Assembly (NCBI RefSeq): GCF_032118995.1
Contig: NC_092660.1
Span: 20,818,501 to 20,882,500, forward strand
DNA length: 64,000 bases
Source of the DNA: Asterias amurensis
Taxonomy: Eukaryota; Echinodermata; Asteroidea; Forcipulatida; Asteriidae
Direction of reading: 5' to 3'
Positions 1 through 60,167 of this stretch are shown here, one piece after another (within the stretch, counting starts at the first letter, position 1; each line of letters begins with the position of its first letter). The translations under genes were made by a program, and so were the position numbers. The notes beneath the pieces were generated by a model, which saw only the letters and a program-made list of their open reading frames with translations, made no database searches and was not told the DNA's origin.

Positions 1-3000
1 CAATGTTACAAAGGAGTTCCTCGCTAGGGACGTTCCTAAGGTATACGTAAACACGCAACTTAGCAACTAAGTGATCGCAATATATCCTGATAAACACACC
101 ATCATGTTTTATGGTTTATTTAAATAACAATCACAAATTTGCGGTCCAACGACCGAATTGCATTCTGAATTTGCATTTAAAAATACATTCACAAAATAAA
201 ATAAAAAGTAAAAGATTATCAAACATTCTGTACAAAAGGGGAAAATTTGCCCAAGAGCAAAATGATTAGTTCACACTCATTATGCTAATGGATGTTAGTA
301 AATTGCAACTGTGGAGACGTCATAATTATCTTGTTACTGGAAATGAGCATCTAGAATGTATCTAAGCGGTCCCCAACCTTTAAACCAGGGGCCCAGGGTT
401 TCTAACTTGCTTTGCTTATGTTTCACTTAGTTACTTGTTCATGTTTGTTGTGTTGTCATTTAGCCTAATTCGAGAAAGACTCTGCTAGGGTCGAAACGTC
501 ATTCCATTAATTGTTTGTTTTATTTTAAAGGTATAGGTTTTTTTAACAGAGGAGATTAAAGCACATTATAAATGGATGTCACTGTGGGGTTTTGTGTTCT
601 TGAAATTATTTTCTACACATTTTTATATGTATTTTTTAGATTTTTAAAAATGTGACAGAGTGTCACAGGTTTGTCTATCAATTAAGCCGCGGATTCGGTC
701 TTTGTTCTCCCACGTATAGGCCTACACGTTATTTCGATTTATTGTTTGAAGCTAAGTCCTTTTTCGTTTCTGTGCGCAAACCGAAAATTGAATAATCTTA
801 ATTTTGTTACTTGAAGCCACTTTTGGTGGTGTGAGGTCAGGGGGCAGTCATGATTGATGTGGCTGATGGTTTGGGAGCTGCCACACTGACACAGCTGTAG
901 CTCTTACTGCCAAAGCTATACCAGTTCTAAGTCTTAGGCGAGTTGGACCTAAACCCCAGAAGGAACATCCCCCACGTGAATGTCTAGAGGAAGGAGTTGG
1001 AACAAAGTCACGGATTAGTAGACTTAGGTTACCAGACAAAACACACTGTAACGATCCTCTATAGTCCCCTTCTCAGATAGGATTAATAAGATTAACCCAT
1101 AGCGGTTCGTGAATTTCCTGCCTAGCACAACTCATAGCGGTTCGTGAACTTCCTGCTAGCACAACGCTTGTGCTAAGCAGGAAATTCACGAAACGCTATG
1201 AGTTAATCCTATCTCGAGTTATATTACGACGAGTAACTCGTCATAATAAGGAACACGTTGCCTTGAATCGGTCGAGTTGATATTTGAAGCGTTTGTAGCC
1301 GTTTGTTTAAAGTCACTTGGAAATAGATTTGTTTTCCTTTCAAACATAAGAGTATATGCTTACGAACAATAAAACAATTTTTTTAGTAATTGTTTGTCAC
1401 GATTTATTGTTTAAACAATATATAAAGTTGTTTGGGGGGCTGACTCCGCCTACCCCTTTTGTGACGTCAATCGAGGCAGACTTTGCCTGCAATGCGTATA
1501 GTAAACACACGTGCAAAGTACATGTACGTCCAAGTCGTGAGTTGGTACATTTCAAAAAGTGTTTTTCTGCATTCAGCAGCAATATACCTGGTCGGCATTG
1601 CCGGAAAAAAACAATATATATATTTTTTTTTTTGAAACGTACAAACTCACGACTTGGTCCGTACATGTACTTTGCAATTGTGTTTACTCTACGCATTACA
1701 GTCCAAGTCTGCCTCGATTGACGTCACGAACAGCGCCCTCTCGGGTCGGGGTATACTCTTAAATTAGTAAATTACATAAGAACTAATTTTTTAAAACCTT
1801 AGTTAACTGTTTATTCACATTCCACTCATCAAAGCACATATATTAGTGACAAAAGCTTTATTTTGAAAAAATACCACTTCCAGGTAACTTTAAAATGCAT
1901 AGGTTAGAAAGATGTTGAAAACTTAGGTAGAATACAATGATCCACACAAACATGCCTCGAAATTGCAAGGTTTTCCTTTGACCTCGTCGACTAACATGGT
2001 CGGCCATTTATGGGAGTAATTTTTTTTACTTCTATAAATGGCCGACCGTGTTAGTTCGCAAAGTAAAAGGAAAACAAACCACGCACTTTCGAGGCAAAGT
2101 TGTGTGGATCATGTATTCCACTTTAATTTAAAACATCTTTCCGATCATATGCATTTAAAAACAAACGGTTACAAAGGTTTGTATAGACCAAGACCGATCC
2201 AAGGCAACGTGTTTCTTTAACTTAGGATGGGTTCAATGCGTCCTAACGTCTATGGATAGGCCTACGGAACTTAACTTGTCCTAGGCTATTGAATGCTTTT
2301 TGGCTTTCTTGCAGGTTTCTCCTCTTTCGGGTCGAATGTTCCCTAGATGCAGTGTGGTTGGTAATAGTGGAATTCTCTCTAACAGTAAATGCGGACACGA
2401 TATCGATCAAGCAGATTACGTCATCAGGTAAAGACTTATGAACATGATTTTGGTTTAGCCGATTCCTTTGAGCTTTTGTAGGTATTCGTACTCCAAGTTA
2501 GTTAACAAAACAAAACATTATTAAAAAAGAAACAAGAAAAAAGGAAAAGACGTATTGTGCCCTTAGGGGCGTGGCAACCCCTGCAGGATGCCCGCCGGTC
2601 GATCGGAGCTCTTTCCGGTCCCCAGGGAAAGACAGATTCAAAACTAATTAATTTGAAATAATAATAATGTTATTGACTACATTGTTCTAATAATAAAATT
2701 GTAACATTTTATCTGTTCCTCACTAGGTCCAATGTACCACAAATACGCCCTCATACGGTGGATGCTGGACGGAAGTCTAATTTGACAACAATGAATCCTA
2801 GTATTGCTACGCGAAGGTACAAAATAATAATGGTACATCACACAATGTAAACACGTAGACAATTTATCTCATTTTATGAAATGATGCTACACTGTAAAAA
2901 ATTACCGTAATTTTACGGTGAAAAGTACGTAAATAGCTATGGTGTTTTACCGTAACGAGATTTTTCCATGACTTTACGGTGCAACCCCGTAAATACCGGC

Positions 3001-6000
3001 TCGCAATGCACCATGGGATTGTCTAAAAAAAATACCGTAATTTTTACGGTGATAACGACATTTTTCCATGACTTTACGGTGCATCCCGTAAATACCGGCT
3101 CGCAATGCACCATGGGATTGTTTAAAAATAATTACCGAAATTTTTACGGTGAAAAGTACGGTGGAACCCATAAATAATGGCTCGCAATGCACCATGGGAT
3201 TGTTAAATAAAATCACCGTAATTTTTACGGTGAAAAGTACGCAAACATTAGTTTATTCCAATTCCAGTCGTCTAGTTTTCAAAATACCCATCATCGGTAA
3301 CCTGTTAAGGTTTCTATTTCATCAGTTATTCTATGTGGATGTTTATATTGTGTTATGAAGACCACTAAATGCAGCGGCTGAATTCGATCAGTGCAAATCG
3401 AAAGCAGTTGTTGCCTTTTGATGGTGTTCAGAACTTTTCTTGAATATCTGCCTTTTGATGGTGTTCAGAACTTTTCTTGAATATCAGCATTTAAGATGGA
3501 ACTATTTTGAAGGGAGATTATTATCTCATTTGCAGTTTTATGATGAAAATTATTTAGAATTATATTTCTTGCCAAATTATTTTGATAATTACCAAAGCTG
3601 TATCGTACCTTTAACATATGGTTATTTTCCACTTTTTAAAAAACAATACCATTGGAGTAATTATACTATTGTAATAAGCCATTACAATTACGGTCAGGTT
3701 CCACTTTTTCAAATACGGCCCCATGGCAGTAATATCAACGTGTAATATACCGTACAAATCACGGCACTCTGTAACCTCGTGTACGGTTTTACACCGTATT
3801 GACAGCCTTATCACCGTAAAAATAACGCCACAACAGCTTCCTCACCGTGAAAATCACGGCACACCGTACCTTCATGTACGCTTCACACCGTATATTGACA
3901 GCTTTCTCACCGTGAAAATCACGGCACACCGTAACTTCGTGTACGGCACACCGTAACTTCGTGTACGGTTTACACCGTAAACTGACAGCTTTCTCACCGT
4001 GAAAATCACGGCACACCGTAACTTCGTGTACGGTTTGCAACGTAAAATTTACGGGAATCGGTTGGCATCTCGCTGCACAACCGATTCCCGTAAATTTTAC
4101 GGGAATTTTTTAGTGTACTCGAGTATGACTGCTCAGGTACGAGTACGAGTACGAATAAAAGTAGCATTCGAATACGAGTACGAGTTTCATCAAAACAGTA
4201 CCCAACTAGTACTCAAATAAGAGTACGGACTATCAAAACGGTACCCCAGTAGAACTTGAATAAGAGTATGAGGTTTATCAAAACAGTACCCCAGTAGTAA
4301 TCGATTACGAGTACAGGTACCCATCAAAACGGTAAACCAGTAGTACGTGAGATTTAGAGTACACCCCCTCGAATAAGAGTAGCCTACGAATACCAGCCAA
4401 TGGTACCCCAGAAGTACTCGAACAAGAGTACGAGTACTATCAAAACGTTACCCCATGCAGTAGTACTCGAACAAGAGCACGCGTACCATCAAAACGGTAC
4501 CCCACCAGTAGTACTCGAATAAGAGCACGAGTACCATCAAAACAATACCCCATAGAGTAGTACTTGAGTAAGAGTCTGAATACAACGGTACCCCACCAGT
4601 AGTACTCGAATAAGAGTACGAGTGCCATCAAAACGGTACCCCACCAGTAGTACTCGAATAAGAGCACGAGTACCATCAAAACAATACCTCATGCAGTAGT
4701 ACTTGAGTAAGAGCACGAGTGCCATTAAAACGTTACCCCGTGCAGTAGTACTTGAGTAAGAGCACGAGTACCATCAAAACGTTACCCCGTGCAGTAGTAC
4801 TTGAGTAAGAGTCTGAAAACAACGGTACCCCACCAGTAGTACTCGAATACGAGTACGAGTGCCATCAAAACGGTACCCCACCAGTAGTACTCGAATAAGA
4901 GCACGAGTACCATCAAAACGTTACCCCGTGCAGTAGTACTTGAGTAAGAGTCTGAATACAACGGTACCTCACCAGTAGTACTCGAATAAGAGTACGAGTG
5001 CCATCAAAACGGTACCCCACCAGTAGTACTCGAATAAGAGCACGAGTACCATCAAAACGTTACTCCGTGCAGTAGTACTTGAGTAAGAGTCTGAATACAA
5101 CGGTACCCAACCAGTAGTACTCGAATAAGAGTACGAATACCATCAAAACAGTACCCCACCAGTAGTACTCGAATAAGAGCACGAGTACCATCAAAACGTT
5201 ACTCCGTGCAGTAGTACTTGAGTAAGAGTCTGAATACAACGGTACCCCACCAGTAGTACTCGAATAAGAGTACGAATACCATCAAAACTGTACACCAGTA
5301 GTACTCGAGTAAGCGCATGAATACCATCAAAACTGTACCCCAGTAGTACTCGAAACAGAGTACGAATTCCATCAAAACTGTACACCAGTAGTACTCGGAT
5401 AAGAGTACCAATACCATCAAAATACCCCAGTAGTACTCGAATAAGAGCACGAGTACCATCAAAACTGTACACCAGTAGTACTCGAGTAAGCGCATGAATA
5501 CCATCAAAACTGTACCCCAGTAGTACTCGAAACAGAGTACGAATTCCATCAAAACTGTACACCAGTAGTACTCGGATAAGAGTACCAATACCATCAAAAT
5601 ACCCCAGTAGTACTCGAATAAGAGTACGAATACCATCAAACTTTACCCCAGTAGTACTCGAGTATTAAGAGCACTAGTACCATCAAAACTGTACCCCATT
5701 AGTACTCGAGTAAGAGCACTTGAGTACCATCAAAACAGTACTCCAATAGTACCAATACAAAGTTCGAGTCCCGAGGATGGTTAGAAGGAAACACACTTAT
5801 GAAATAACAGCGAAACCATGACCCTTTGATCTTTGATTTTAATACTTTCTTCATGTAGTCACTAGTAGATCCAGTAGGTTTCCTAATAAAGCAACTGTAT
5901 ATTATTAATTTCAAAGCTCATTGATGATTGGTTGAAGCTTTTTAATGCCATCTTGGTTTTTAATTGAGCTGTAATCCAATTTATAAACACTTCCCTTTTA

Positions 6001-7125
6001 TGTTTTTATAACGTATTATTCTTGTTGTGTATCTTTTAAGCTCAATTCGGCCCTCGGGCTGCCGTGTTTGAATTTTAAATAAACCAATAATGATGATCCC
6101 CGACTGTTATCCGTGCGAATGAAGTCTTAGATGTCTAGGTAGACCCCAATAACAATGTTTGTGTTTTTCTCTGTCCTTTCGCCAAGATTTAACAAGCTGA
6201 AAAACAAGACAGATACTGTTGCTTTTGCAAAGATCGTTCAGGAATACTACGGTATCCTGTGGTTGCCATGTCTCACAGCTACTAGTTCAACTGACGTATG
6301 TCTGAAGGTAAAACACACACTGGAATTGGAAAACGTCCGGAACCTCACGGCAGCTGTCGCAGATCCACGCCATTTTCTAGCCATATACAACTTCTGGAAA
6401 CAGAGAAACCTTAAACGGGCTCTTTCGACAGGTATGTTTGTCGCCCTCTGTCGACCACAACAATGCAAATTGGGATAATTAATGCGCGTGCGAAGCGCCT
6501 GAACATCTGACGTCACATAGGGACTCAGTCTAACCCCTATGTTGATGTTGTTATGTTGTTGCCACTGTTGTTGTTTTATATTAGTACGTCGTCTTACAAA
6601 TTTCGGATTTAACAAAATCAACTTTACATTAGCGGGACTTGAACCTTGAACCATACAAGTTAAAAAATCCAGCATGGGGAAAACATTTGTCATGCTTATT
6701 GACTAACCTAGCACACAATATGTTTACAAACAAACTAATTAGACAAGTCGAACGACATCATGCAGGCCGCAATCAATGGCAAACACAATTTATTTTTTTA
6801 AAGTGCGGTCAAAATGAAGTCAACACTTTAAGTTATATCAGTGTTAACAATATTTAAATGTATTTTTTGTGATCCAACTGAAGGTTTCTACATGACTCAC
6901 TTGGCACTGACGATGTGCGAAGAGATACACCTCTACGGCTTCTGGCCCTTCCCATCATACAGGGTGTCAGACAGAGTGACAGACACATTGAGGAAAGTCA
7001 AGTATCACTACTTCGACAACGTTGGCTTCAGTTCGTTTCATTCAATGAACGATGAGTTTGCTGTACTTCTTCAAATGCACGTTATGGGAATCCTCAATTT
7101 GCACACCACAGAATGTGGTGTCTGA
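1..7125 (+). CDS. ST8SIA-like: ST8Sia-like alpha-2,8-sialyltransferase, gene 1 (5' partial)
   Basis: Coding exons seen: 1-40 (end of exon 3), 2315-2427, 2727-2816, 6187-6431 and 6884-7125 (stop TGA). All borders are GT/AG and the phases (0,2,2,1) match the paralogues downstream. The first 40 bases read NVTKEFLARDVPK, matching the end of exon 3 in gene 2 (NVTEGFFAENVSP), so exons 1-2 and most of exon 3 lie outside the window. Sialylmotif L begins at [16 protein letters not shown] (exon 4) and runs through TTMNPS (exon 5). Motif S is [20 protein letters not shown], motif III is YHYFD and motif VS is HSMNDE (exon 7). The family moves sialic acid from CMP-sialic acid to a terminal sialic acid in the Golgi. 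Exon 7 is three codons shorter than in genes 2-4, and the end reads ECGV instead of DCDV. Acceptor specificity cannot be read from sequence. Confidence 0.85.
1075..1215. repeat. Short foldback with a duplicated left arm
   Basis: GATAGGATTAA at the left end matches TTAATCCTATC at the right end. The inner stem (CTCATAGCGGTTCGTGAA and its complement, then TAGCACAA/TTGTGCTA) has its left arm present twice. Lies in intron 3 of gene 1. Confidence 0.65.
1248..2219. mobile_element. MITE family B, copy 1 (piggyBac-like), interrupted
   Basis: The ends AAGGAACACGTTGCCTTG and CAAGGCAACGTGTTTCTT are inverted, and the body is one long foldback (TGGTCGGCCATTTATGGGAG against its complement near 2030-2050). 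It is split at about 1310-1890 by another MITE. Other family copies in the window lack that insert. Confidence 0.8.
1311..1889. mobile_element. MITE family A nested in family B
   Basis: The termini AGTCACTTGG and CCAGGTAACT are flanked on both sides by TTAA. The inside is a foldback: TGACGTCAATCGAGGCAGAC on the left pairs with the reverse complement near 1711-1728. Related copies are at about 25703-26035 and 52201-52760. TTAA flanks are the target preference of piggyBac-type elements. There is no transposase, so it is non-autonomous. Confidence 0.75.
2888..4117. mobile_element. Long foldback element with ACGGT-rich ends
   Basis: TACACTGTAAAAAATTACCG at the left end pairs with the right end CGGGAATTTTTTAGTGTA. 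Internal modules containing TTACGGTGAAAAGTACG recur on the left (2910-3245) and in inverted form on the right (3750-4110). The middle (about 3250-3700) is AT-rich and unexplained. A module at 3411-3486 is a perfect 38-bp tandem duplication. Lies in intron 5 of gene 1. Confidence 0.6.
4118..5760. repeat. Minisatellite, about 45-50 bp unit, around 32 copies
   Basis: The unit contains CAGTAGTACTCGAATAAGAG followed by a CATCAAAAC segment and GGTACCCC. Units vary in length and sequence, most at the left edge. A larger block (about 5285-5640) repeats a group of units. Reading frames across it are by-products. It occupies intron 5 of gene 1. Confidence 0.9.
5761..6186 (+). other. 3' part of gene 1 intron 5, nothing recognised
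   Basis: AT-rich intron sequence ending at the acceptor before exon 6 (CGCCAAG). No repeat or gene recognised. Confidence 0.5.
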
Positions 7126-8441
7126 CAATTATTATTTAGTAATTATATTACATGATTGCTGATTCAGAGTAAGCCTTTAACTGGTTTCCATTGCCATGTA
7201 CATTGCTACTTTTTAAGAATTACTTTTAAAGTTTACTATAATTATTACATAGTAGTTTCGCTTGAAACAGTAACAACCTTATAATAATTTTACTTGCGGA
7301 TGCGATACAAAATTTGACGTCACCAATTCGCAACGAATATTTCATTCGGGTTGAGCAGTGACGTTAAGTTCGTATCACATTCGCATATTTCGCAGGAAGT
7401 TGAACCGACGTGGACGGAGATTCTGTGCCCCCCCCCCCCACAATGAACTACTGTAAACACAATAATACTACTGCGCCGGTTTCCAGGCAGCCTGTACACT
7501 GCACATAGCTCCCCAAAATTGAGCATTAATTGTTAATGAAAAGGAACAATAAACGTCTTGTTTTATAGTCTAAAAGATTACCAAAAGTCGGCACACAGCA
7601 AAACAAATGATGATATAAATATATACATTAAATTTAGTCTAAAATGAGAGGGGGACAAATTCCCCTTGCGAAGACAGATGACCCTAGGAGATGATGTGTC
7701 CTAGGAGATTCGGTCCCCCGGACCGTTGTGCGGGGGGACAGAATTCCACGTGACACCGGGGACACCGGGGCAAACACTTTATGGCGCTTGGATGACTTAA
7801 GTGGGGTGGGGGGGGGGGACACATTAACCCACCGAGACCATTACGCAATATTAGATCATATTTACCATGGTAACAGACACAAATTAAATAATGCTAATGC
7901 GCAAGTGGACGAAAGCCTTTAATTTCTTCGGACGCGGCAATACCCTGTGTTTGTAAAGCCTGTTTTTATTGGTTTCTATGTGTCGAAATTTCGGTTTATT
8001 GGAGTATATGCTTATTATTTCGCTTGTCTTTCACGTGGTATTTAAGATGTTTTTGTTAACGTAAGACTGGTTCAGTTGAAGCCTAGACAACTGCACGCCA
8101 AGCAAACTCTTACGTTGTACCAAAAATTAATTATTTCGTCAGCTAAAAGTTTATTATAGAGGCATCATGCCTAAATGCCCCCCCTTTAAATTGTCATTAT
8201 GCCCCTCCCGCTTTATTATGCCCCCTCTAATTATTCAACAGCTACTTGACAGCACCCCTTTGTTTCAACAGCCAAGTGTTAACCAATCAGAAGCCTGGAC
8301 ATACCCAGTGAGTAAGTATTAAAGGATCACCATGTGCAGCACATACATCATGCAACCATGCCATTCCATGTCATACTGGATGTGATGTTGCAGTGAGAGT
8401 GCATTAGACACAATTCAAACTGTGAAGCCCTACTTACACTG
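7126..8441. other. 3' flank of gene 1
   Basis: Holds the candidate poly(A) signal, a C-rich run near 7429, and a GGGGGACA-rich inverted stretch (about 7644-7830; CCTAGGAGAT occurs twice, CCCCCCGG-type arms). No gene seen. Confidence 0.5.
7548..7553 (+). terminator. Candidate poly(A) signal of gene 1
   Basis: AATAAA about 420 nt after the stop codon of gene 1, followed by a T-rich stretch (GTCTTGTTTTATAG). First canonical hexamer downstream by eye. Confidence 0.4.
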
Positions 8442-11196: not shown

Positions 11197-14100
11197 ATGA
11201 CACGCCGATTACGGGCTTGTCTTTTGCTATTATGTTCGATTGTTTTACTGAGTATTGTGTATAATGTCTTCTACTTCACGAAGAAGCCGCCAAGGATGCT
11301 TCAAATGACACACTTGAGACAGGAGTTAATCAGAGAAATTACATGGGGAAATACTTCGTTCGTCTTTAATGCAGACGAGCATAAGCAAGAAGGCATCAAC
11401 ACAATCATTGTTAGAGGTATAACAGGTAACACCGAGGCTATAGTAAGGTGAGGAGGATTAGCTGTAACATAACCTATCGATGTTTGTACACACGCAGGTA
11501 AACGCATATACCTGCCCTGGATCGGTCGAGTTGGTTTTTGAAAAGCGTTTGTAACCGTTTGTTATAAAATGCATATGGTTAAAAAGATGTTTTAAAAGTA
11601 GAATACATCGATCCACACACATTTGTCTCGAAAATACGTGATTTTTTTTCTTTTTACTTTGCGAACTAACACGGTCGGCAAGTTATGGGAGTCACCATAT
11701 TATGGCCGACCGTGTTCTTTGGTCGACGAGGTAAAAGGAAAACGACGCAATTTCGACTGTTACTTGTGTGGATTTGATAAATTAAAAATCCTTGTGAAAT
11801 TTGCATTGCTATGGGCGCTGCCATTTTCTACATGATGAAAGTCAAGGCGCCCGACCAACTGCAAAGTCTTGCACCCGCTGTATAGGTTGGCGTGATGCTT
11901 GAGAATACTAGTGCATACCGCATTGTAGGGGAGATACACCAAGTGAGAAGACTGGTCCTTGACAATTACCAAAAGTGTCCAGATTTTCTACGCAAGGACT
12001 GACAAAAATATGTTCCATTTTCTCGGAGTGATTGAAGGAGTGTGGTACCATTATTTGCTTGTTCTATTCGATTCTATCAATTGTGTTTCCACTTAGTTTA
12101 CACTCATCCCATGGAGGCCTAAAATAAATCTGTTATCAATAACAAATCTTTTATAGGACATTAAAAAACTACCATTGCCAACATTATTCCCGACACAACT
12201 TGTAACATACCCCAGAACTTAAACCATTTTTGCAATGAAGCTTTGTCAAGAAATGTAGTTTTACTTTAACAAAATTGTGTTTGCAAAGTTTATCTACGTC
12301 AACTCTGTTTTCTACTTTCCCTAATTCTTTGGGCAAAAAAAAGATATTGTTGAGTTGGCCTCCAGTTGGTTTATTTACTCACACAACACGGAACCGTTCA
12401 GAATCAGTCTCAACAATCCATAGTAGAAGGGGTTATTGAAGGGAGTATGAGGTCAAATTGTTGTTCTACAGTTTATTTCGTTTACTGCTTCGCCGATTTC
12501 CCTTTCATAAGGCAAATACAATAAATGTCGAGTTGCCAACCAGGGAAAATATTTGAAAGCCTTATGTCAATAATATTATAGCCCCCTACACAAGGTAGAA
12601 ATAACGATACTGAAACGCCAACAAATAAATGAATAAAAAGAAAAGGAAACAACTTGTGGAAACACCAGAAACATAGAAATATAAAGACGCCGAAATATAA
12701 TTTAGAATAAAAACCTCGGATACAAAGAAGCAAACGGGAAAACACGGATATACAGAGAATGTAGAAACAAACATGAATTAAGAAACACAAAATAAGAGAT
12801 ACAAGAAACAAAGAAGCTCAATAAATAATTGAAAAGGGGAATCAATTCACAAATAAGAAAGGCCTGCAGAATCTTATGAACACAGAATAACGTCAAGAAC
12901 AAAACATAGCAACTTGCATCAGTACCGTACCCGTTATCAGCTTTCAAAAATACAAAAGAGTAGTTAAACTTTTTAACAATATATTAGCACCCATTGATCA
13001 CACAGAACATTGAAAATCGCTATAAGATCAAGACTATGACTCAACTATGTCAAATGAATTTCATTCTTCATAAATAGTTGGTAGACTTTCAGACTGAAAA
13101 TGGTGAATTAAAGTCTTGAATACCTGAGCATATAACGAAAAAAACGAATTGAACCTGAGTGAGAAGAACCAAATCATGTGTGCACCATGGCAATGCATTC
13201 ACAATAGCTGAAAAAGAAACCTTTAGCTTAAACAAACTAGGGGTAACTTGTATATTTACATGCGTTCATGTAGAAATGAAATTGAATTTATGTCGACTAA
13301 AAAGGATCAGGAAAATGTATTTCGATGCCGTAAGTTGAATCATTTGACCTTAGAGAAACTATGGTTTAAGAAATTACCGAATATTTATTAAACATCATGA
13401 AAACTCATGACAGTTATTTGTTGGGTTTGAGATGCAATTCATGTTTCGAGGGTTTTTCTGTGGTTCTCCTTTTATTAACACTTAGTTGCATGAGTATCAG
13501 GGCTGATATTATAATGTGCTATTTGTGTATGACTGTCATCACCTGACATAAATCAGACAGTATTTTGGATCCCCTCTTATCTAAAGGTATCATAAGCACC
13601 ATTTGATTTGAAGCAACCGTGTTCGAAAAGGTAAGCTTTAGTTAGCGTTGAAGAAAAAGCTTATTGGGATCGTTGTTACTGTATCTCGTGAATTTAAACG
13701 TTTTCACCCAATCACACGTTAGAATGTGTAAAGCATAAAAAGCACACACAGTCTCGTCTGTGTAGACGGTGTACAGAAAAATTCACGAGATTTCACCTAT
13801 ACTTTATGTTGTTTATTGACTATTATTATTTCTGTCATTATTATTTTGCTTTCAGGAAAAGCTCCATACCGGGTCAATTTCAAGTATTAAAAGAAATTGG
13901 GGACCAATTGACTTTTTGCGATCACGTGCTAACGTCAACACCATGGAAACCAAATCCTCTAAATCTAGCCGAGTTCAGGTAATTAAGAACACGTTGCCTT
14001 GGATCGGACGAGTTGGTCTAAAAAAAAAGCGTCCGTAACCCTTTCCACTGCGTGGTTTTTCCTTTTATTGTGCGAACTAACACGGTCGGCCATTTATGTT

Positions 14101-17100
14101 GACTCCCATAACTGGCCGACCGTGTTAGTCGACGAGGTAAAAGGAAAACCGTGCAATTTCGAGGCATGTTTGTGTGGATCATTGTGTTCTACTTTTACAA
14201 CATCTTTCTACCATATGCATTTTATAAAAAACGGTCACACACACTTTCCAAGGACCAACTCGACCGATCCAAGGCAACGTGTTCCTTTAATATAATGGAT
14301 TAGAGACACGATTAACCGGAATTGAAATAATATCGTTGTGTTAATAAAATTCTCTTGCATCGGGGATAATGATTAGGCCGTTTACTTGGTTTTACACCTA
14401 TACGGATGTGTAGCACTGTATGAGCCCAATACTTTCTCAAGTCCTGTGAAAAATCAAAGGCATAATTATTTTCGGGTGGGATTCGAACCCACGACCCTTG
14501 CAATTCTAGAGCAGTGTCTAACCAACTAGACTACCGAGATTGCCCGGTAGCTAGTGGCAGTTCGAACAATATTTTAGCAGTGAGTACTGCAAACTAATTA
14601 GTATACTATAGATTTTAAATTTGCATCTAGAATAAAGAACACTATTAACTGGTTTAACCGATACGCACCGATGTGTGTAGCACTGTATACTCATTACTTT
14701 CCCGTCTGTGGAACATATTACATGCATATTAATACTCAGATGGGATTCCAAATTCTTATTCAATTTTATTTTAAAAATATGGTGTGTTTTTTCTCTTGAG
14801 AACGGTGAAAGAAAAACCACACGTGATCAACCCCATGTGCACTATGTATCACCTTAAAGTATCAATGACTTTCTTAAAGAATTGACAAACACTGTTTTCT
14901 TATTTTGTACATTGTTGAATATATTTGTGGGAAAAAATACTAATAAGTAAGCCAAGTAAAATGTGGGTCTTTGAAGGGGAAGTTTACGTACGTTTGGTAT
15001 AATTCCTTTTTTGGTTAGAAGCCTATACACCAGCTTTCGAGTGTCTAAAGCATTTTGAGATACATTTTACTTCAAGATGTGTTTACGTAATTAGCTTTTA
15101 TTCCCCAAAATTTGAATCTGACAAGGTTTGGCTGCGGTATCATTTCTCAGCTTGTGTAACCCTGTAGTATTATTCTTTCTGTGTGGACAAACGCTCCGGA
15201 AGGCGGCGATATCTCGAATACACGACCGTCCTCTTGACACGAATTTTTCACAGGTTAATTTTGATTGTAAAAATCTTCTAGATACACAGGATTAAAACAA
15301 TCAAACGGTTCCAATACAAAAACTTTTGCTCAATACTTTCCTCTAAACCGCTTTTTATCGAGTGCGCCCTCTATATTAAATATATCGTTTAGTGTTATGT
15401 TATTTTGCGAAACCTGGATAAGGATAAGGATATTTTGTTTTTATTAGCAACCATAACCATAGCCGACGGTGTGAGATTTTGCATGGGTTTATTGGTACAT
15501 AAATATAAAGGCTCACCTTGTGTAACTCGCCATATTGGAAGATAAGGAATCACAGGATGTTGATCGTTTTAGTAGATGTATAGTAGCTTCATATTTTTCA
15601 CCAAAAAACAACTTTTGAGCTTATCTACGGCATAACTTAAGATTGAGATCGATTTTAACATTTATTATACAAAACATTGTATAATAAGTCATATTGATAG
15701 TTCAATGCTTTTGAACTACGTCATCACGTTACGTCCAACCGAACAACGTGTTTTTGTAATAACAAATTTATGTCTAGTTATTAGCTGTTCCGGCGTAGTG
15801 GTGGGAACAGCTATTGAAATCGTCAAGATTTGTGTGTGTTATTGTTATGATTTGTATCCTCAAAAGCCCATAGGTTTAACCAGGGCAATTTCTCACGGCC
15901 AAAAGTCATACTTTGTCCAATATGAAAGAGTCAAAGCCTATACCATATTAAAGCTTAGGTTTTAAAAAGTTACAGTTAAATGTAATGAGCATCTATTCAT
16001 TAATTAATTAACTAAGTTATAACGACATGAATATTCAATCAGCCGATATATATATTTTTTTCTTTCTTACTTTTTAGGTACTGTTTAACCATTCGATAGC
16101 CTTAATTTCCGGACGACGTCACCATGACGTCATGTACTGCACGTCTTGTGTGCATAAACGGCCGGTGTTGTTGCACTTTTTGTTCAATAGAGATTTCTTA
16201 CGTTCACCGACTAATTCACGGATAGAGTCCATAGATATATCCGGGCTACATCTAGGTACATGTTTGGGGCTACATTTAGGTTCGGGCTACATCTAGGTGC
16301 CGCACAGGAGTGTGACCTTTTTTCCACAGCGGTAGCAAGATGAAGAAAATGAAGAAGACTTCTTTGTTGTAGCTATGGCACGTACTGCATCTCGGCTTGC
16401 AGTTTCCATTGCGATTGCTAATCCTGTAGCTTTCTTCAATGTGAGCTTATCTTCAGCCAATAACCGTTTCTGGATGTTACCAGCTCGCAATCCGCAGACA
16501 AATCTATCACGTAGAGCCTAATTGAGATACTCTCCGAAGTTACAGTGCTTGGCTAACTTGCGTAATTCAGCTTGATTGACGCTGACACGTTCCCCCTCTT
16601 TCTGGTCTCTTATATGAAATCGAAACCTCTCCGCAATTACCAGGGGCTTGGGAGACAGATGTGAAGTCAAAATGTTCACAAGTTCATCATATGTTTTGGA
16701 GGAGGGTTTGGCAGGTATTGTCAAATTCTTCAACAGCCCGTATGTTTTACTTCCAATAAGACCAATCAGAGCCGGTACTTTATTGCTATCATCATCAATA
16801 CTGTTCACCTCAAAATATTGTTCTAAACGTTCAACATATGTTGGCCAATCCTCTTCTGCATTGTTGAAGGGATCGATTCGCCCGATCATCATAGACGCCA
16901 TCGTAATGTACACCGACTATTCACGTTGACTTTGTGTGTGTATAGCATGCACAAAATAGTTAGGATGACGGAGATCAAGTTGTCAAAAGTAACTTTGGAA
17001 AAACGGGATCCAAATCACTTATTTTCAGCAAGAAATAATGCTTCAAAATGCCAACAGTCTAGTTATAGAGTTGAGGTATATATTATATATCAGTTTGATA

Positions 17101-33200: not shown

Positions 33201-33434
33201 TTGGCACTGACGATGTGTGAAGAGACACACCTCTATGGCTTCTGGCCCTTCCCCTACAGGGTGCCAGACAGGGTGACAGACCCTTGGACAAACACCATGA
33301 GGAATGTCAAATATCACTACTTCGACAAAATTGGGTCAAATAAAGCTCATTCAATGAACGATGAGTTTGCTGTATTGCTTCAGATGCACGTTATGGGACT
33401 CCTTAAGTTGCATGTTAGAGATTGCGACGTTTAA
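30211..33434 (+). CDS. ST8SIA-like: ST8Sia-like alpha-2,8-sialyltransferase, gene 3 (complete, 410 aa)
   Basis: Seven coding exons: 30211-30443, 30634-30759, 31480-31654, 31823-31935, 32553-32642, 32824-33068 and 33184-33434 (1233 nt in frame, stop TAA). The product starts [10 protein letters not shown]; either Met could initiate. The signal anchor is at about residues 10-28. Motif L starts at C190 (CSVVGNGGILSYSSCGKEID) and ends near TTMNPS (residue 241). Motif S is residues 328-350 ([12 protein letters not shown]), motif III is HYFD 372-375, and motif VS is H383-E388. C190 and C339 are in the positions of the disulfide that joins motifs L and S in the family. Sequons NHT, NST, NLT and NMT are present. 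This is the most compact gene of the array (3.2 kb) and the closest relative of gene 4, including the promoter. The C-terminal end is LHVRDCDV. Acceptor preference is unknown. Confidence 0.9.
32134..32506. mobile_element. MITE family C, copy in gene 3 intron 4
   Basis: AGCAGTGGACACTATTGG at the left and CCAATAGTGTCTACTACCT at the right, flanked by TTAA at 32130-32133 and 32507-32510. Confidence 0.8.
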
Positions 33435-40700: not shown

Positions 40701-43700
40701 GCGGGCACCCGGATATCACGGTCCCTTTATGAACAAGCCCAGGGTCAACACAAGCCTGCTGGCTACACACGTACAATCTTAATATTCAAAGCTCATACCC
40801 GATTCAACTACAAATCACTTCATTTCTCTGACAAAACCATGATGTTAATGCCTGTTTATTGTATGCAAATCCGTGTGATGGTCTTGCGTTGTCATTTTTA
40901 TGAATTGGTTTTTTTCCCCCTCGCAATTAACCAATTTGTGAACTTTGTTTATTTTGTGGCTTCTAGATTTTAGCATTTTGAGCACTTATAGTTGACTTGT
41001 TTGCAATCCCTTGGATCCATTCTATGGAATGGGTGCAACGTAAATCAACACGTTATCTGCTATAGCACACGTGCTTTCTATATGGGGAATCATCATAGAC
41101 ACATTCCACAATTGACTTTATCAAACATAAATCTTATGAACTTTGACTTTCAATAAAGAGCTTTGTGAAGAATCAATACAATATCCAGACATGATCGGAT
41201 TAATAAGTGTAGAGCCCGGGAAGGAGGCCAACCCTTTAATTAAAGGGGACAACCATTCAACAAACTACTACAAACTAAAGTTCCAATGATGGCGTCTTTA
41301 GCCTATAAAAATACCATGATCTCCTGCAACTACTAAACTACAACTGAAATAGCATTTATACCAGTATAGTTCAATCACTCATGTAAAGGGAACAGGTGGG
41401 TAGAGGTTGGCAAGTTAACAATACTAGATTCAACTAGCCCTAAAAAGTACAACATTTCTCAAGACAAAGTGAGATGTTATAAGGTCACATACTCAAAGAG
41501 AGGTCTTGGACATTATCCTGCACAAATCAAAATAGTATTTGGAGCATTGCCGAAGCCGTGCTCCCTACAACAATAGAGGTAAATACTTATGAAGAATCTC
41601 TCTCCCGCAACGCTAACATCACGGAACAAAGGAAGGACCGAAGCCGATGCCGATTACAGGGTTTTCAGAAGTATTGAGGACGCACTTTGTCAATAATTAT
41701 TCAACTAAAATTTTTGTTTTGAAATACTTGTGTAATTCGAAACAAAATGAAATGGTGGTATCTGCGTGGTGGCGCCCAACTCTTGTTGTACCATCCCACC
41801 GCCCATTAATCAAATCTCTTGTCAATGTTAAAGGGAAAAGTTGTTGAACCATACCAACTCGACCTTCCAGGACGAGTTCGTGTTGACTCATCGCAACGTG
41901 AGAGTAGGAGATAGACTGCCGTATTCATTCACTAATACCAGGCCAGACAATAAAACATTCTTCTACAAACTCTCCAAGAAATTCATTAAAGACGATGTCC
42001 CACCGGTAAGTCACAGTTCCAAAAAGAGCACGGGTGGAGGGGGAGTTGATCTTTAAATGAAACTCACTATGTGTGTGAACAAATACTTCAAAGTGTGGAC
42101 CTAAGGACATATGGCGCATATGGGATGTTTTGTGTTGTACATTTTAAGCATACGTAAAATTACCATTTCCCACGTCAGGTACGTACGCGCAGGCGTCATA
42201 CGTGAGCATGAAATAAGCCAAAAGTTAGTGACGTCACCTAGACATGACACCATTCTTGACGTTCACGTTCACGGTTTTGCTCGCGTAACATGCAGCTAAA
42301 CCTCGCTAAATTTATCTGCACGTTGCGCGAGCAATCACGTCAACGTGAATGTCAAAATAATATTGTGTTGTTTCTAGGGGACGTCGCCACTTTGAGCTTA
42401 TTGCAGGATAACGTATAACGTCTGCACGTACGTACCTGACGTGAAAAATGGTAACCTCACGTATGCTGAAAACGTGAAATTTGAACGGCACAATTTTATT
42501 TTCTGACGTTCACGTTCACGTTCACTTTGCTCACGGAACGTGCAGCTAAACCTCCCTATTATTACATGTGTGCATGTGCTTTTCCATTTACCAATTGGTT
42601 TTCAATGGGAAAGAAAAAAGGAATAAATAATGTCTATTGTTCATAATCCGACAAACTCTAAGAAAAGATGTTGGCGCAAAAACCACACCTTGGGTCTCAG
42701 TAAACGATACTCGTCAGATAAGTCCTATCGGTTAAAACAAACATTAAAATAGGCCGACGTATTGGGAAAAGACGTATGAACATCCCCACCCTATAAATAT
42801 ATATATTAATGAGATCCTTTGTTTTGTTCTTGATTTGTTCAAGTTTGTATTTTTGTCTCTCCAGATTTCACCACTATCTGGTAAACGATTCAAACGATGC
42901 AGCGTGGTTGGCAATAGTGGAATTCTCTCAAATAGCAAATGTGGAAAGGAGATTGACCAATCAGATTACGTCATCAGGTACGACGGCGGCCATTTTCGAA
43001 CCATCGGCTAAGTCTCTCTGTGCATCGTTTTGAAAAGGCCACGTCTATATTTCTTTCAATGTATAATTTTTATTGAGACCACGAGTTGAAAATACATCAC
43101 AATAAGATACAAAAAAAGTTGTCTGTTGACTCCATTCACCAATATTACGAAGCATATTGCTAGAGAAAAGTTAAACATGTGTGAAGTTTTTAATGTTTGT
43201 TTTTGGATATCAGGTCGAATTTTCCGCCGATACGCCCTCACGCGGCGGACGCCGGTTGGAAAACCAACATAACGACGATGAATCCGAGTATTATTCAAAG
43301 AAGGTACAAAGTCAATAATGTGTTTACAATTTTTCTCTAAAATACTCAACATAATTGTTAGCATCAACACTTACTTGGTAACAAGCAATGGAGAGCTGTT
43401 GATAGAATAAAACGTTGAGAGAAACGGCTCACTCTCTGAAGTAACGTAGTTTCCGAGAAAGAAGTAATTTTCCATAAACAAAATATTTGAATTTGATTTC
43501 AATACCTCATAATTCGATTTTGAGTTCCCAAAATCAAGCATCTGAAAGCACACAAGTATGTGTGACAAAGGTGTTTTTTCTTCCGCTACTCGCAACTTCG
43601 ACGACCAATTGAGTTCAAGTTTTCACGGGTTTTTGTTCTGTGCATAATTATTATGTTGAGATACATTAAGTGAGAAGACTGGTCTTTGACAATTACCAAT

Positions 43701-44945
43701 AGTGTACAATGCTTTTAAAGACAGTGGACACTATTGGTAATTGTCTAAGACCAGTCTTCTCACTTGGTGTATCTCAACGTAGTATACATAAAACAACAAA
43801 CCTGTGAAAATTTGAGCTCAATTGGTCGTCGAAGTTGCGAGATAATAATGAAAGAAAAAACAACCTTGTCACACGAAGTTGTGTGCTTTCAGATGCAAGT
43901 TGATTTCGAGACCTCATCTAATTCTAAGGTCTCGAAATCAAATTCGTAGGGAGCCGTTTCTCACAGTGTTTTATACTATCAACCTCTTCCCATTACTCGT
44001 TACCAAGTAAGGTTTTATGCTAATAAGTATTTTGAGTAATTACCAATAGTGTCCACTGCCTTTAATGTCAAATCAATCAAAATGTTGACATTGAACTGAA
44101 GATAACTCATCGATCATCTTATAATAAAATGCTTTGCGAATCACCTCCTGAATATATATATATATTTTATAATTGTTGTGTGTATTGTGTGATTGTTGAT
44201 TTTATTTTATTTTAAAATTACAGATTTAAAAACCTGAAGACCAAAGAGGCTACAATTTCATTCGTAAATGCCACCGGTGATTACTACGGTGTCCTTTGGT
44301 TGCCATGTGTGGCATCCACCGCCATGATTGGTTTATGCCTAAAAGCAAAACACACCCTTGATAACTACGGTGTCCGAAATCCTGAGACATCCATCGCCAA
44401 CCCATTACATTATCTAGCAATACTCGACTTTTGGAAAGAGAGGAAAATGACGGAGTTCTTGTCAACAGGTACGAGTCTGGGTGTTAGTTCTTTTCAACGA
44501 TTGGGACGGGGGGAGTTGATTGTTAGCCCACTCTTGAACATTGTCTTACTTGAAGCTATATGAATGTTCTTTACAATTGAAGTGATATCGAGTCTTCGAA
44601 GTTTTATAAAGACTTAAATTTGTAGACCGTAAATACATTTTCCTGACTTCACAAAAGTGTAGCTATTGAAAACTGAACTTTGTTTTATTCATAGGTTTCT
44701 TCATGACTCACTTGGCACTGACGATGTGCGAAGAGACACACCTCTACGGCTTCTGGCCCTTCCCCTACAGGGTGCCAGACAGAGTGACAGACACTGGTAC
44801 AAACACCATGAGGAAAGTCAAGTATCACTACTTCGACAAAATCGGGTCAAGCAAAGCTCATTCGATGAACGATGAGTTTTCTGTACTGCTTCAGATGCAT
44901 GTTTTGGGACTCCTTAAGTTGCATGTCAGAGACTGCGACGTTTGA
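37707..44945 (+). CDS. ST8SIA-like: ST8Sia-like alpha-2,8-sialyltransferase, gene 4 (complete, 409 aa)
   Basis: Seven coding exons: 37707-37939, 39780-39905, 41834-42005, 42865-42977, 43214-43303, 44224-44468 and 44695-44945 (1230 nt in frame, stop TGA). Exon lengths equal those of gene 3 except for one codon less in exon 3. The type II anchor is at about residues 10-28. Motif L starts at C189 ([20 protein letters not shown]); motif S is 327-349 (starting [14 protein letters not shown]), motif III is HYFD 371-374, and motif VS is H382-E387. Exon 1 and the upstream region are nearly the same as in gene 3, so the pair arose by a late duplication that included the promoter. The introns have since gained MITEs: families B (38914-39299) and C (39917-40223, and a back-to-back pair at 43338-44061). 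All motifs needed for catalysis in the family are present. Confidence 0.9.
38815..39345. repeat. 44-bp direct repeat, third copy split by a MITE
   Basis: ACTGCAGCAGCGTTTTA followed by AGCAAAAC and TTTTAATGGAATTG occurs at 38815 and 38859, and again at 38903, where family B is inserted. The remainder of the unit resumes at 39300. Confidence 0.75.
38914..39299. mobile_element. MITE family B, copy 4, with its empty site beside it
   Basis: AGGAACACGTTGCCTTGG and CCAAGGCAACGTGTTCCT ends with TTAA on both sides, and a nearly perfect foldback. The neighbouring repeat unit without insertion has a single TTAA at the same place, so TTAA is the target duplication. In intron 1 of gene 4. Confidence 0.85.
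39917..40223. mobile_element. MITE family C, copy in gene 4 intron 2
   Basis: AGGCACTGTACACTATTGG at the left and GTGTCCAGTGCCT at the right, flanked by TTAA (39913-39916 and 40224-40227). It begins 11 nt after the exon 2 donor. Confidence 0.8.
42147..42558. mobile_element. Foldback element in gene 4 intron 3
   Basis: AGCATACGT, TTACCATTT and ACGTCAGGTACGTACG at the left pair with CGTACGTACCTGACGT and GGTAACCTCACGTATGCT at the right (to about 42469). A direct copy of an inner block (GACGTTCACGTTCACG, then GTGCAGCTAAACCTC) follows at 42512-42558. Confidence 0.6.
43338..43714. mobile_element. MITE family C, left member of a back-to-back pair
   Basis: Family landmarks run from CTCAACATAATTGTTAGCAT to CCAATAGTGTACAATGCT. 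The left terminus is eroded. The right end touches TTAA at 43715-43718. Confidence 0.75.
43719..44061. mobile_element. MITE family C, right member of a back-to-back pair
   Basis: AGACAGTGGACACTATTGG at the left and CCAATAGTGTCCACTGCC at the right, flanked by TTAA at 43715-43718 and 44062-44065. The first TTAA is shared with the neighbouring copy. The two together form a foldback of about 720 bp in intron 5 of gene 4. Confidence 0.8.
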
Positions 44946-46475
44946 GACTCATTCAACCGGGATGGCCTTTCTTTGAAGTTCTCTTCAATGATGTCACTGC
45001 ATTAGGACGCCCTCACGCAGAGGTAAAAGAAGCGTCGCACATATTAATTTACCAGTCAGAAAGCCCTTAGACAAACCAAGGTGTACACAAAGAGTCTGCT
45101 AGGGTCGAAACGTAAGGCCATTAACTAATTATGCATCTATCCCTGCCATCGGTCCTTTTGGTTGGTAACTTGTTTGCAAAATTTAATTATTTATATTTCT
45201 CGTAGTTATTTCTGGTAATGAAAACACAATGCATCATAAGTAAATTTAATCAATAGCTCATAACATAAGAGGCTTGCTTTATGAACCACAAAGATCAAGT
45301 GTTAAGGGTACAAGGGACAATCAACCCCATTCTATTCCAAGGACTAAGCAACTATTGGTATAGTGTCTTGCTTTGACACAATTGTCAAGACCGGACTTGT
45401 TAGGTTCGTGATTCGCTGCGATCGGTTCATTTGGTTTATGTCGAAGTGGTATGAGTTTTGTGCTACCTGAAATATTGTGAAAGATTTATTACTCATCAAA
45501 TGAGCTTACGTACCCTTCTTTATTTGTCCAAAGTTCTATTTTATGTATGTTTGTGTGAGCCGTAAACAATTGAACGTTCTTAACGAGGGTGCAATGTGCC
45601 ATATCATTAAATTTTAGTACTTAAAACGATGTTATCAGTGTTTTATTTATTCACACCTTACATGGTTCGACTTCGTTTCCAGCAACCGTACCCATTCATG
45701 TTTATTTGGCATTTGGACATGCATTACGATGGGTAGATGTCGGAGAACGACTCAGTACAAGGATACATTATATTGATTGCAACCCCCAACCCGCCCCATT
45801 CACCACTCATTCACCCCAACATTATGATAAAGAATAGTATTACGGTATCATGGAGTGGCCAAAGTTAACAGCCAAATGCTGTCATGCTGCGAACATCACA
45901 ATAAAACATACATTACGGTACCCGGAATGATCAATTGCATCATTGCAATCATCTGCATATAATCTGAAACTCAATTTGTATCAATACCCTAAGAATTACT
46001 AGTACATTTCAGTGTGACGTCATGACGACGTCATCGATTGTTGAATAACTTAACATTAAGCGTTCCACAAAATTTGTGCTTGTGCTATCCATACATCTTC
46101 GGATGTTTTTTTTTTTTTAATTTAAAACAGGAATGATTTGTTCATGACATGACCCTAGTTTGACCTTTATTTGACCTTTATTGCGGTCTGTTTGCATCCT
46201 AGAGTCTGCTCCCATCTGCCGATATCCCAGGGAATTCTGTTCAGGAGATTCTTCCCCCGTACGGGAAATTTAATAGGGCTGAAAGAGGATATTTCAAAAG
46301 AGGGCGCTATCAGAATTAGCCTGTTTACAGCTCGACGTATATGGGGAACAGAATCTCCGGGGACAGAATCTTAAGCCACAGCGGCCCCATATCACTGATA
46401 ATGCATTTAAAGGTATGGGAAGGTTTGAGGTACATTTAAATGTGACTCTGCATTTAATCGTTATAGTCATTGCCG
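44946..46475. other. 3' flank of gene 4
   Basis: Contains GAGTCTGCTAGGGTCGAAAC at about 45090 (also seen near 480), a T run near 46109, and a GGGGACAGAATCT stretch at 46355-46370 next to the minisatellite. No gene seen. Confidence 0.5.
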
Positions 46476-48115
46476 AACGGGCTCGATAGCCACAGCAGAA
46501 CGGGTTCGATAGCCACAGCAGAACGAGCTCGATAGCCACAGCAGAACGGGTTCGATAGCCACAGCAGAACGGGCTCGATGGCAACAGCAGAACGGGCTCG
46601 ATAGTCACAGCAGAACGGGTTCGATAGCCACAGCAGAACGGGTTCGATAGTCACAGCAGAACGGGCTCGATAGTCACAGCAGAACGGGCTCGATGGCAAC
46701 AGCAGAACGGGTTCGATAGCCACAGCAGAACGGGTTCGATAGCCACAGCAGAACGGGCTCGATAGCCACAGCAGAACGGGTTCGATAGCCACAGCAGAAC
46801 GGGTTCGATAGCCACAGCAGAATGAGCTCGATAGTCACAGCAGAACGGGTTCGATAGCCACAGCAGAACGGGTTCGATAGCCACAGCAGAACGGGCTCGA
46901 TAGTCACAGCAGAACGGGTTCGATAGCCACAGCAGAACGGGTTCGATAGCCACAGCAGAACGGGCTCGATGGCAACAGCAGAACGGGCTCGATGGCAACA
47001 GCAGAACGGGCTCGATAGTCACAGCAGAACGGGTTCGATAGTCACAGCAGAACGGGTTCGATAGCCACAGCAGAACGGGCTCGATGGCAACAGCAGAACG
47101 GGTTCGATAGCCACAGCAGAACGGGTTCGATAGCCACAGCAGAACGGGTTCGAAAGCCACAGCAGAACGGGTTCGATGGCAACAGCAGAACGGGCTCGAT
47201 AGTCACAGCAGAACGGGTTCGATAGCCACAGCAGAACGGGTTCGATAGCCACAGCAGAACGGGTTCGATAGCCACAGCAGAACGGGTTCGATAGCCACAG
47301 CAGAACGGGCTCGATAGCCACAGCAGAATGGGTTCGATAGCCACAGCAGAACGGGTTCGATAGCCAAAGCAGAACGAGCTCGATAGTCACAGCAGAACGG
47401 GTTCGATAGCCACAGCAGAACGGGTTCGATAGCCACAGCAGAACGGGCTCGATAGTCACAGCAGAACGGGTTCGATAGCCACAGCAGAACGGGTTCGATA
47501 GCCACAGCAGAACGGGCTCGATGGCAACAGCAGAACGGGCTCGATGGCAACAGCAGAACGGGCTCGATAGTCACAGCAGAACGGGTTCGATAGTCACAGC
47601 AGAACGGGTTCGATAGCCACAGCAGAACGGGCTCGATGGCAACAGCAGAACGGGTTCGATAGCCACAGCAGAACGGGTTCGATAGCCACAGCAGAACGGG
47701 TTCGAAAGCCACAGCAGAACGGGTTCGATGGCAACAGCAGAACGGGCTCGATAGTCACAGCAGAACGGGTTCGATAGCCACAGCAGAACGGGTTCGATAG
47801 CCACAGCAGAACGGGTTCGATAGCCACAGCAGAACGGGTTCGAAAGCCACAGCAGAACGGGTTCGATAGCCACAGCAGAACGGGCTCGATGGCAACAGCA
47901 GAACGGGCTCGATGGCAACAGCAGAACGGGCTCGATGGCAACAGCAGAACGGGCTCGATAGTCACAGCAGAACGGGCTCGATAGTCACAGCAGAACGGGT
48001 TCGTTAGCCACAGCCGAACAGGTTCGATAGCCACAGCCGAACGGGCTCGATAGCCACAGCAGAACGGGCTCGATGGCAACAGCCAAACGGGTTCGATAGC
48101 CACAGCAGAACTGGC
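46476..48115. repeat. Minisatellite, 23-bp unit, about 71 copies, 552-bp higher order
   Basis: The unit is AGCAGAACGGGTTCGATAGC plus CAC, with variants GGGCTCGATGGCAA and TAGTCAC. The order of variants in 46650-47160 is nearly repeated at 47203-47712, an offset of 552 bp or 24 units. Open frames on the - strand (PFCCGYRTRSAVAIEPVLLW) follow from the repeat. Confidence 0.95.
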
Positions 48116-49587: not shown

Positions 49588-50350
49588 CAGGGCTCCTAGG
49601 ACAGGGGATCCGGGTCACTTCTGGGCTCTTAGGACAGGGGATCCGGGTCACTTCTGGGCTCCTAGGACAGGGGATCCGGGTCACTTCTGGGCTCCTGGGA
49701 CAGGGGATCCGGGTCACTTCTGGGCTCCTAGGACAGGGGATCCGGGTCACTTCTGGGCTCCTAGGCAAGGGATCCGGGTCACTTCTGGGCTCTTAGGACA
49801 GGGGATCCGGGTCACTTCTGGGCTCCTAGGACAGGGGATCCGGGTCACTTCTGGGCTCCTAGGACAGGGGATCCGGGTCACTTCTGGGCTCTTAGGACAG
49901 GGGATCCGGGTCACTTCTGGGCTCCTAGGACAGGGGATCCGGGTCACTTCTGGGCTCTTAGGACAGGGGATCCGGGTCACTTCTGGGCTCCTAGGACAGG
50001 GGATCCGGGTCACTTCTGGGCTCCTAGGACAGGGGATCCGGGTCACTTCTGGGCTCCTAGGACAGGGGATCCGGGTCACTTCTGGGCTCCTAGGACAGGG
50101 GATCCGGGTCACTTCTGGGCTCCTAGGACAGGGGATCCGGGTCACTTCTGGGCTCCTAGGACAGGGGATCCGGGTCACTTCTGGGCTCTTAGGACAGGGG
50201 ATCCGGGTCACTTCTGGGCTCCTAGGACAGGGGATCCGGGTCACTTCTGGGCTCCTAGGACAGGGGATCCGGGTCACTTCTGGGCTCCTAGGACAGGGGA
50301 TCCGGGTCACTTCTGGGCTCCTAGGACAGGGGATCCGGGTCACTTCTGTT
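49588..50350. repeat. Minisatellite, 33-bp unit, about 23 copies, very homogeneous
   Basis: The unit is CTGGGCTCCTAGGACAGGGG then ATCCGGGTCACTT. Most copies are identical or differ only at CTCCTAGG/CTCTTAGG, so the array is young or actively homogenised. Each unit carries GGATCC. One unit near 49765 is one base short, which shifts the reading frame of the long open stretch. Confidence 0.95.

Positions 50351-60167: not shown

Follow-up and report, generated by a model that had tools for sequence, protein, structure and literature searches.

A tandem cluster of six predicted ST8Sia-type sialyltransferase genes in Asterias amurensis, with signs of gene conversion between copies

Some of the sialic acid linkages made by echinoderms are seldom found in mammals, and a group of neighbouring starfish genes for ST8Sia-type sialyltransferases raises the question of how the copies arose, and whether their divergence has altered the acceptor or the linkage formed. 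The window analysed here is a stretch of 64,000 nucleotides of Asterias amurensis (contig NC_092660.1, here C13, positions 20,818,501 to 20,882,500), in which positions are counted from the first nucleotide. It contains five genes for ST8Sia-type sialyltransferases (family GT29), termed g1 to g5; g1 to g4 are arranged head to tail, and g5 is convergent with g4. A sixth gene (g0) is located upstream of the window, ~36 kb before g1. The whole cluster comprises six complete genes in ~115 kb, with g0 to g4 head to tail followed by the convergent g5, and so provides a small, defined set of candidates that includes five close relatives. Among the open-access matches listed, none dealt with this cluster or with the ST8Sia genes of a sea star as a family.

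The exons were located by translated searches, their borders were read in the sequence, and they were then joined into models. All of g0 to g5 are divided into seven coding exons, whose splice sites are canonical and whose phases match. In g1 to g5 every internal exon border has an AG acceptor or GT donor and the joined frames are free of stops; exons 2-7 of g0 likewise have an open frame and AG/GT borders. The genes are as follows.

g0, C13:20763776-20789485 (loci L036, L010 and L011), upstream of the window, with exon 1 at C13:20763776
g1 upstream of the window, plus strand: exon 1 -25160..-24931 (C13:20793340), exon 2 -899..-774, exon 3 -131..40
g1 within the window (1..7125), plus strand: end of exon 3 1-40, exon 4 (motif L) 2315-2427, exon 5 2727-2816, exon 6 6187-6431
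g1 exon 7, 6884-7125, plus strand: motifs S, III and VS and the stop
g2, 11197-20774, plus strand: 414 aa, Pfam GT29 E 5e-46
g2 exons, plus strand: 11197-11447, 13856-13978, 17510-17681, 18146-18258, 19258-19347, 19506-19750, 20524-20774
g3, 30211-33434, plus strand: 410 aa, Pfam GT29 E 7.2e-50
g3 exons, plus strand: 30211-30443, 30634-30759, 31480-31654, 31823-31935, 32553-32642, 32824-33068, 33184-33434
g4, 37707-44945, plus strand: 409 aa, Pfam GT29 E 8.4e-50, PDB 5BO6 E 8.7e-45
g4 exons, plus strand: 37707-37939, 39780-39905, 41834-42005, 42865-42977, 43214-43303, 44224-44468, 44695-44945
g5, 60167-51495, minus strand: 391 aa, Pfam GT29 E 3.6e-47, PDB 5BO6 E 4.1e-41
g5 exons (5′ to 3′), minus strand: 60167-60055, 56403-56275, 55858-55714, 55364-55252, 54777-54688, 53682-53444, 51841-51495

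A first-pass annotation of the window had described four head-to-tail genes and one convergent gene with intact L, S, III and VS motifs, and this arrangement is confirmed by the exon-by-exon models, the motif search and Pfam. It had also placed g1 only partly in the window, and exons 1, 2 and most of exon 3 do indeed lie upstream. Exon 1 of g1 is a candidate that a loose scan placed 24 kb upstream, with a junction phase that agrees; an earlier and stricter scan gave no convincing exon 1 for either g0 or g1. A genome search with this exon returned three matches, comprising itself, a 96% identical copy upstream of g0 and a weak match elsewhere (E 0.24). In g1 to g4, exon 1 encodes a hydrophobic segment after a short basic start (based upon a hydropathy window only), and exon 1 of g0 and g5 is similar by eye. 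The C-terminal tail of g5 is 38 residues longer than those of g0 to g4.

The intervening DNA contains a number of other elements. There are long minisatellites at 23018-25510 (unit 54 bases), 46475-48111 (23 bases), 49590-50348 (33 bases) and 4408-5745 (48 bases), the first three of which give the longest chance open frames in the window. A tRNA-Ser (anticodon AGA) is predicted on the minus strand within intron 2 of g2 (14467-14541) by ARAGORN, and Rfam agrees that this is a tRNA. On the same strand, frames at 16521-16916 and 63377-63658 resemble the remains of retroelement genes by eye, with no match in Pfam. A repeat with 69-89% identity is common to introns of g1, g2 and g4 (1891-2220, 11513-11773, 14057-14290 and 38978-39300).

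The assignment of the genes to the GT29 family is general. All five proteins submitted to Pfam (g1 to g5, with g1 lacking exon 1 and g0 not in the set) match PF00777 with 157.7-170.3 bits, where the curated cut-off is 23 (E 7.2e-50 to 5e-46). Motifs L, S, III (HYFD) and VS (H....EF) are found by motif search in all six genes including g0, and each has the motif b sequence GFWPF within motif S. In the alignment motif a is NPSI in g0, g1, g4 and g5, NPSV in g3 and NPTL in g2; the motif a search pattern also picks up NPSN in the stems of g3 and g4, which is unrelated. The C-terminal cysteine and the motif L cysteine of the ST8Sia-specific disulfide bond are both present in all six genes, as a pair predicted from the alignment. 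When g4 and g5 were searched against the PDB, the top match of both was human ST8SIA3, with the E-values listed above. The next-best chain, an ST3Gal, scored E 1.4e-10 (g4) and 1.8e-12 (g5), and ST6Gal and ST6GalNAc were also far behind. Exon 6 of g3 searched alone against the PDB gave nothing useful, and the joined proteins were needed. The ST8Sia type claimed in the annotation is thus supported, since ST8SIA3 is the best PDB match of g4 and g5. It is likely that g0 to g5 encode type II sialyltransferases of the Golgi, belonging to the ST8Sia family, and that g0 to g4 arose by local duplication with gene conversion between copies, where activity, acceptor and Golgi location are predictions from the sequence.

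The relationship between the copies was examined in three trees, containing ST8-like paralogs of this genome together with ST8SIA3. In all three g0 to g4 form one clade, with support of 91/96 with a distant outgroup (15 rows), 95/98 without the outgroup (14 rows), and 96/97 on exons 4-6 alone (14 rows, no exon 7). Grouping of g0 to g4 as an effect of conversion in exon 7 (see below) was considered, and the tree that lacks exon 7 gives the same clade. The rows for the genes on C4, C18, C8, C2 and C11 were assembled by eye, open frame by open frame, with splice sites partly checked, and that for the C5 gene skips a short unmodelled stretch. L004, which is a near copy of L003, was left out, as were the ST6GalNAc-like and other GT29 loci.

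Both g5 and the C4 gene fall outside the clade of g0 to g4, and their relative order is not settled by the trees. A six-gene clade of g0 to g5 is not rejected (AU p 0.168 in the 14-row tree with exon 7 and 0.185 in the exon 4-6 tree), and neither is a clade of g0 to g4 with the C4 gene (AU p 0.423 in the former tree). A clade of g2 to g4 with the C4 gene that excludes g0 and g1 was rejected in the exon 4-6 tree (AU p 0.027). The pairing of g5 with the C4 gene in the best 14-row tree with exon 7 has support of just 61/40. Exon 7 of g5 is 40% identical to that of g4, compared with 49% for the C4 gene, so that g5 is no closer to g4 than is the C4 gene. These data support an origin of g0 to g4 by local duplication, with g5 as a more distant neighbour. 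In terms of mechanism, tandem duplication would have generated the five head-to-tail copies beside g5, which may be older. The local expansion proposed in the annotation consequently stands for g0 to g4, while membership of g5 is neither shown nor rejected. A tree with genes 1-4 in separate ancient clades, named there as the contrary outcome, was not found among the paralogs of this one genome and ST8SIA3.

Other GT29 loci of the genome also lie close together. Two ST8-like neighbours on C2 (L003 and L004) are 14 kb apart, and in the two exons compared they differ by 2 silent and 6 changed codons in 223, as a recent tandem pair. A further run of GT29 exons extends over ~170 kb on both strands of C16 (C16:8348828-8518944, with parts in L029-L035), which looks ST6GalNAc-like by its motif. 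It includes two motif-S exons 1.66 kb apart of equal score and translation, perhaps a very recent duplicate.

Silent divergence is distributed unevenly along the genes of the cluster. For g1 versus g2 to g4, exon 7 has 0.317-0.352 silent differences per site, compared with 0.665-0.708 in exons 2, 3, 5 and 6 together. The corresponding values for g2 versus g3 or g4 are 0.188-0.203 and 0.460-0.480. Significance was assessed by permutation of codons among exons (5000 each) for eight of the 15 gene pairs, leaving out those with g0 (a near copy of g1), g2-g5 and g3-g5; the pairs are non-independent and the p values uncorrected. Exon 7 has the lower silent divergence in five of these eight pairs by both ways of counting (p 0.0002-0.0054, uncorrected), with no significant drop in g3-g4, g4-g5 and g1-g5.

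Within exon 7 the silent differences of two pairs are concentrated towards the 3′ end. Between g1 and g4 they occupy 2 of 40 same-residue codons as far as HYFD, compared with 10 of 22 beyond it (p 0.00025), and between g1 and g2 they occupy 2 of 41 and 8 of 21 respectively (p 0.0017). There is no significant split in the other six of the eight pairs, for example g1-g3 with 6 of 40 and 7 of 23 (p 0.2). This suggests gene conversion over the section of exon 7 from motif S to motif III, and the segments concerned, together with a relic discussed below, are as follows.

g1 exon 7, 5′ part from motif S to motif III, 6884-7017, plus strand: probable gene-conversion tract with g2 and g4
g2 exon 7, matching part, 20524-20666, plus strand: used for the silent-difference counts against g1
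g4 exon 7, matching part, 44695-44837, plus strand: includes the long S-III loop
g2 intron 3, exon 3 relic, 17881-17946, plus strand: partial copy of the 3′ half, 22 residues, 73% identical to g3 exon 3

The relic in g2 matches exon 3 of both g3 and g4, and among the matches listed none is from exon 3 of g2 itself. In the DNA, 17870-18262 of g2 aligns with 31571-31939 of g3 with 78.9% identity over 394 columns, running through intron 3 into exon 4, and we regard this as a further sign of exchange between copies. Silent similarity extends to exon 4 in the pair g2-g4 (p 0.0026 and 0.0082) and is borderline there in g2-g3 (p 0.018 and 0.073) and g3-g4; the silent divergence of this exon is not low for g1 against g2 to g4, nor against g5.

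Constraint on codons or splicing, rather than conversion, is a possible cause of the low silent divergence of exon 7. Consistent with this, exon 7 has a high GC3 in each of the six genes, g5 among them (0.58-0.64). As a check on whether silent sites of the motif-S exon are constrained, the C2 pair was also considered; its two silent changes in all are too few to decide. If conversion is the cause, exchange between the copies would act beside selection in keeping the donor and catalytic part alike, above all from motif S to motif III in exon 7. The pattern in exon 7 also suggests testing trees of these paralogs for conversion before a functional role is assigned to any residue.

Exon 6, which encodes the section between motifs L and S, was named in the annotation as the likely place of functional change. 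Among the four catalytic exons it is the one with the lowest identity in all 16 pairs compared, which include human ST8SIA3 and distant paralogs, with values of 70% for g3-g4, 57% for g2-g4, 47% for g1-g4 and 16% for ST8SIA3 against the C8 gene. From the agreement of all 16 pairs, low conservation of this exon is a trait of the family as a whole. In g3-g4, the closest pair, no other exon reaches the dN of exon 6 (0.187). In g1-g4 its dN of 0.421 is exceeded by the stem exons 2 (0.597) and 3 (0.524), and in g2-g4 its dN of 0.288 is exceeded by exons 1 (0.539) and 3 (0.402); for g2-g3 the comparison of stem exons with exon 6 is mixed. The dN/dS of exon 6 is 0.37 (g3-g4), 0.50 (g2-g3), 0.30 (g2-g4), 0.32 (g1-g4), 0.30 (g1-g3) and 0.16 (g1-g2). 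Where g5 is one of the pair, dS is saturated in several comparisons, which makes them unreadable, and exon 3 of g2-g5 has dN 1.419 above dS 0.777 in a poor alignment. The contrast shown by exon 6 is partly due to the unusually similar exon 7. What remains of the earlier claim is that, of the catalytic exons, exon 6 is conserved least, and that it has the top dN in g3-g4; against it, this is family-wide, with dN/dS well below one among g1 to g4 and a higher dN in the stem for g1-g4 and g2-g4.

Two structural features distinguish the cluster in the alignment by eye. Two extra cysteines ~10 residues apart in exon 6 are common to g0 to g5 and the C4 paralog, and absent from the other rows; in g4 they are encoded within

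g4 exon 6, 44224-44468, plus strand: section between motifs L and S, carrying the two extra cysteines

The spacing from GFWPF to YHYFD is 16-20 residues in g0 to g4, compared with 9-14 in the other rows.

Could these features reflect a change of linkage? The expansion might have made enzymes of new linkage, notably a glycolyl linkage (α2,11, 5-O-glycolyl), in which exon 6 and the long S-III loop alter the way the acceptor sialic acid is held. We consider this doubtful. Sialo-oligomers are reportedly present in Asterias rubens, to judge from the title of a paper. In the sections of the literature drawn on here, the starfish ganglioside LLG-5 carries Neu5Gc(2->11)Neu5Gc(2->11)Neu5Gc (PMC8228791), although its source is Linckia, and much starfish sialic acid is methylated at O-8 (PMC6994554), from which we infer that α2,8 extension would be blocked. 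The long S-III spacing of g0 to g4, the exon 6 cysteine pair and the high exon 6 dN of g3-g4 are in keeping with a new linkage. Against it, the dN/dS values of exon 6 among g1 to g4 (0.16-0.50) and its low conservation in every pair have been noted above, and the S-III loop could spread by conversion with the linkage unchanged. Were the α2,11 reading correct, conversion in the local tandem array would have spread a lengthened acceptor-side S-III loop, and divergence would have gone on in exon 6 and the stem. It seems improbable that one or more of g0 to g4 is the transferase acting on the glycolyl hydroxyl of Neu5Gc (α2,11) in starfish gangliosides. The idea of different linkages from duplicated echinoderm ST8Sia genes is not new, given that the 2008 study of Harduin-Lepers et al. 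raises, in the part consulted, a possible role of the ST8Sia group named EX in α2,9 or glycolyl-linked chains (PMC2564942). According to the portion of a 2019 review cited here, sea urchin sialyltransferase homologues were then still to be enzymatically characterised (PMC6994554).

The pair g0 and g1 requires separate comment. Their exons 2-7 are 98.4-100% identical, with an overall dN of 0.010 and dS of 0.002, so that dN exceeds dS on very few changes; exon 6 has two changed residues and hardly any silent change, too few to judge. The substitutions amount to 0.44-2.5% in the four introns measured (2, 3, 4 and 6), and the flanks differ by 3.8 and 7.4%. Such near identity of coding exons might arise from false duplication in the assembly, with two alleles of g0/g1 or of more of the cluster placed in tandem, or some of the copies might be pseudogenes; the assembly paper, in the part seen, describes the purging of haplotypic duplicates (PMC10625585). 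This is unlikely to be the explanation. There are zero runs of N in the 114 kb joined from the window and five upstream loci, the flanks differ to the extent given, the distance from exon 1 to exon 2 is unequal (~24 kb in g1 and ~18 kb in g0), and the frames are open in all six genes. An assembly artefact is thus the less likely origin of the g0/g1 pair, and the simplest reading of its sequence would be repeated exchange between the two genes.

It is very improbable that the cluster is a polysialyltransferase locus: in the excerpts cited sea urchins produce polysialic acids (PMC9630641, PMC6994554) and Lytechinus pictus is credited with an α2,8-polysialyltransferase activity (PMC2564942), but the 32 residues before motif S contain 4-6 K/R and 1-4 D/E in the six genes (a weak measure), and the 2008 study, in the part seen, gives S. 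purpuratus no ST8Sia II/IV ortholog (PMC2564942). The PSTD that marks polysialyltransferases is described as strongly basic (pI ~12), and ST8SIA3 as having none, in the section of the source used (PMC12682141). The calculated pI of the region before motif S is 11.8 for ST8SIA3, above all six genes, and 10.9 for g0 and g1, so that this measure does not separate ST8SIA3.

The cluster can be compared with three known systems. Human ST8SIA3 (PDB 5BO6) aligns with g4 over residues 108-407 with the E-value given above; it differs in that its exon 6 region is just 19% identical to that of g4, and the S-III loop is longer in g0 to g4 than in ST8SIA3 and the compared paralogs. Within the genome, the C5 gene is a candidate for a likelier ST8Sia III counterpart than the cluster genes. 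In the C5 gene a single open frame spans motif L and the segment after it; in the C4, C18 and C8 paralogs, as in the cluster genes, each of the four catalytic segments has an open frame of its own. The placement of the C5 gene is unstable, outside the group of the cluster at 96/97 in the 14-row tree with exon 7, and inside it at 86/81 without exon 7.

The second system is the ST8Sia EX group. The consulted part of the 2008 study describes multiple ST8Sia duplications in sea urchin and amphioxus, and names the group (PMC2564942). The likeness to the present cluster, drawn from description, is that both are multiply duplicated invertebrate ST8Sia genes. The same source, so far as seen, gives the EX group no distinguishing motif (PMC2564942), and our guess is that the C2 and C11 gene set of this genome would be nearer to EX.

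The third comprises the vertebrate mono-α2,8 enzymes (ST8Sia I, V, VI and relatives), with which the cluster has in common motifs L, S, III and VS, an NPS-type motif a, GFWPF and the C-terminal cysteine. A zebrafish st8sia6-like gene has seven exons, in an organization comparable to human ST8SIA6 according to the portion of the report cited (PMC6387029), and there are likewise seven coding exons in each cluster gene. Because of this match we place the cluster near the mono-α2,8 group; based upon exon count and position in trees drawn without vertebrate ST8SIA1/5/6, it probably belongs to the branch having the seven-exon layout of that group. Where it differs from the vertebrate mono-α2,8 genes is that g0 to g5 stand together in one tandem cluster.
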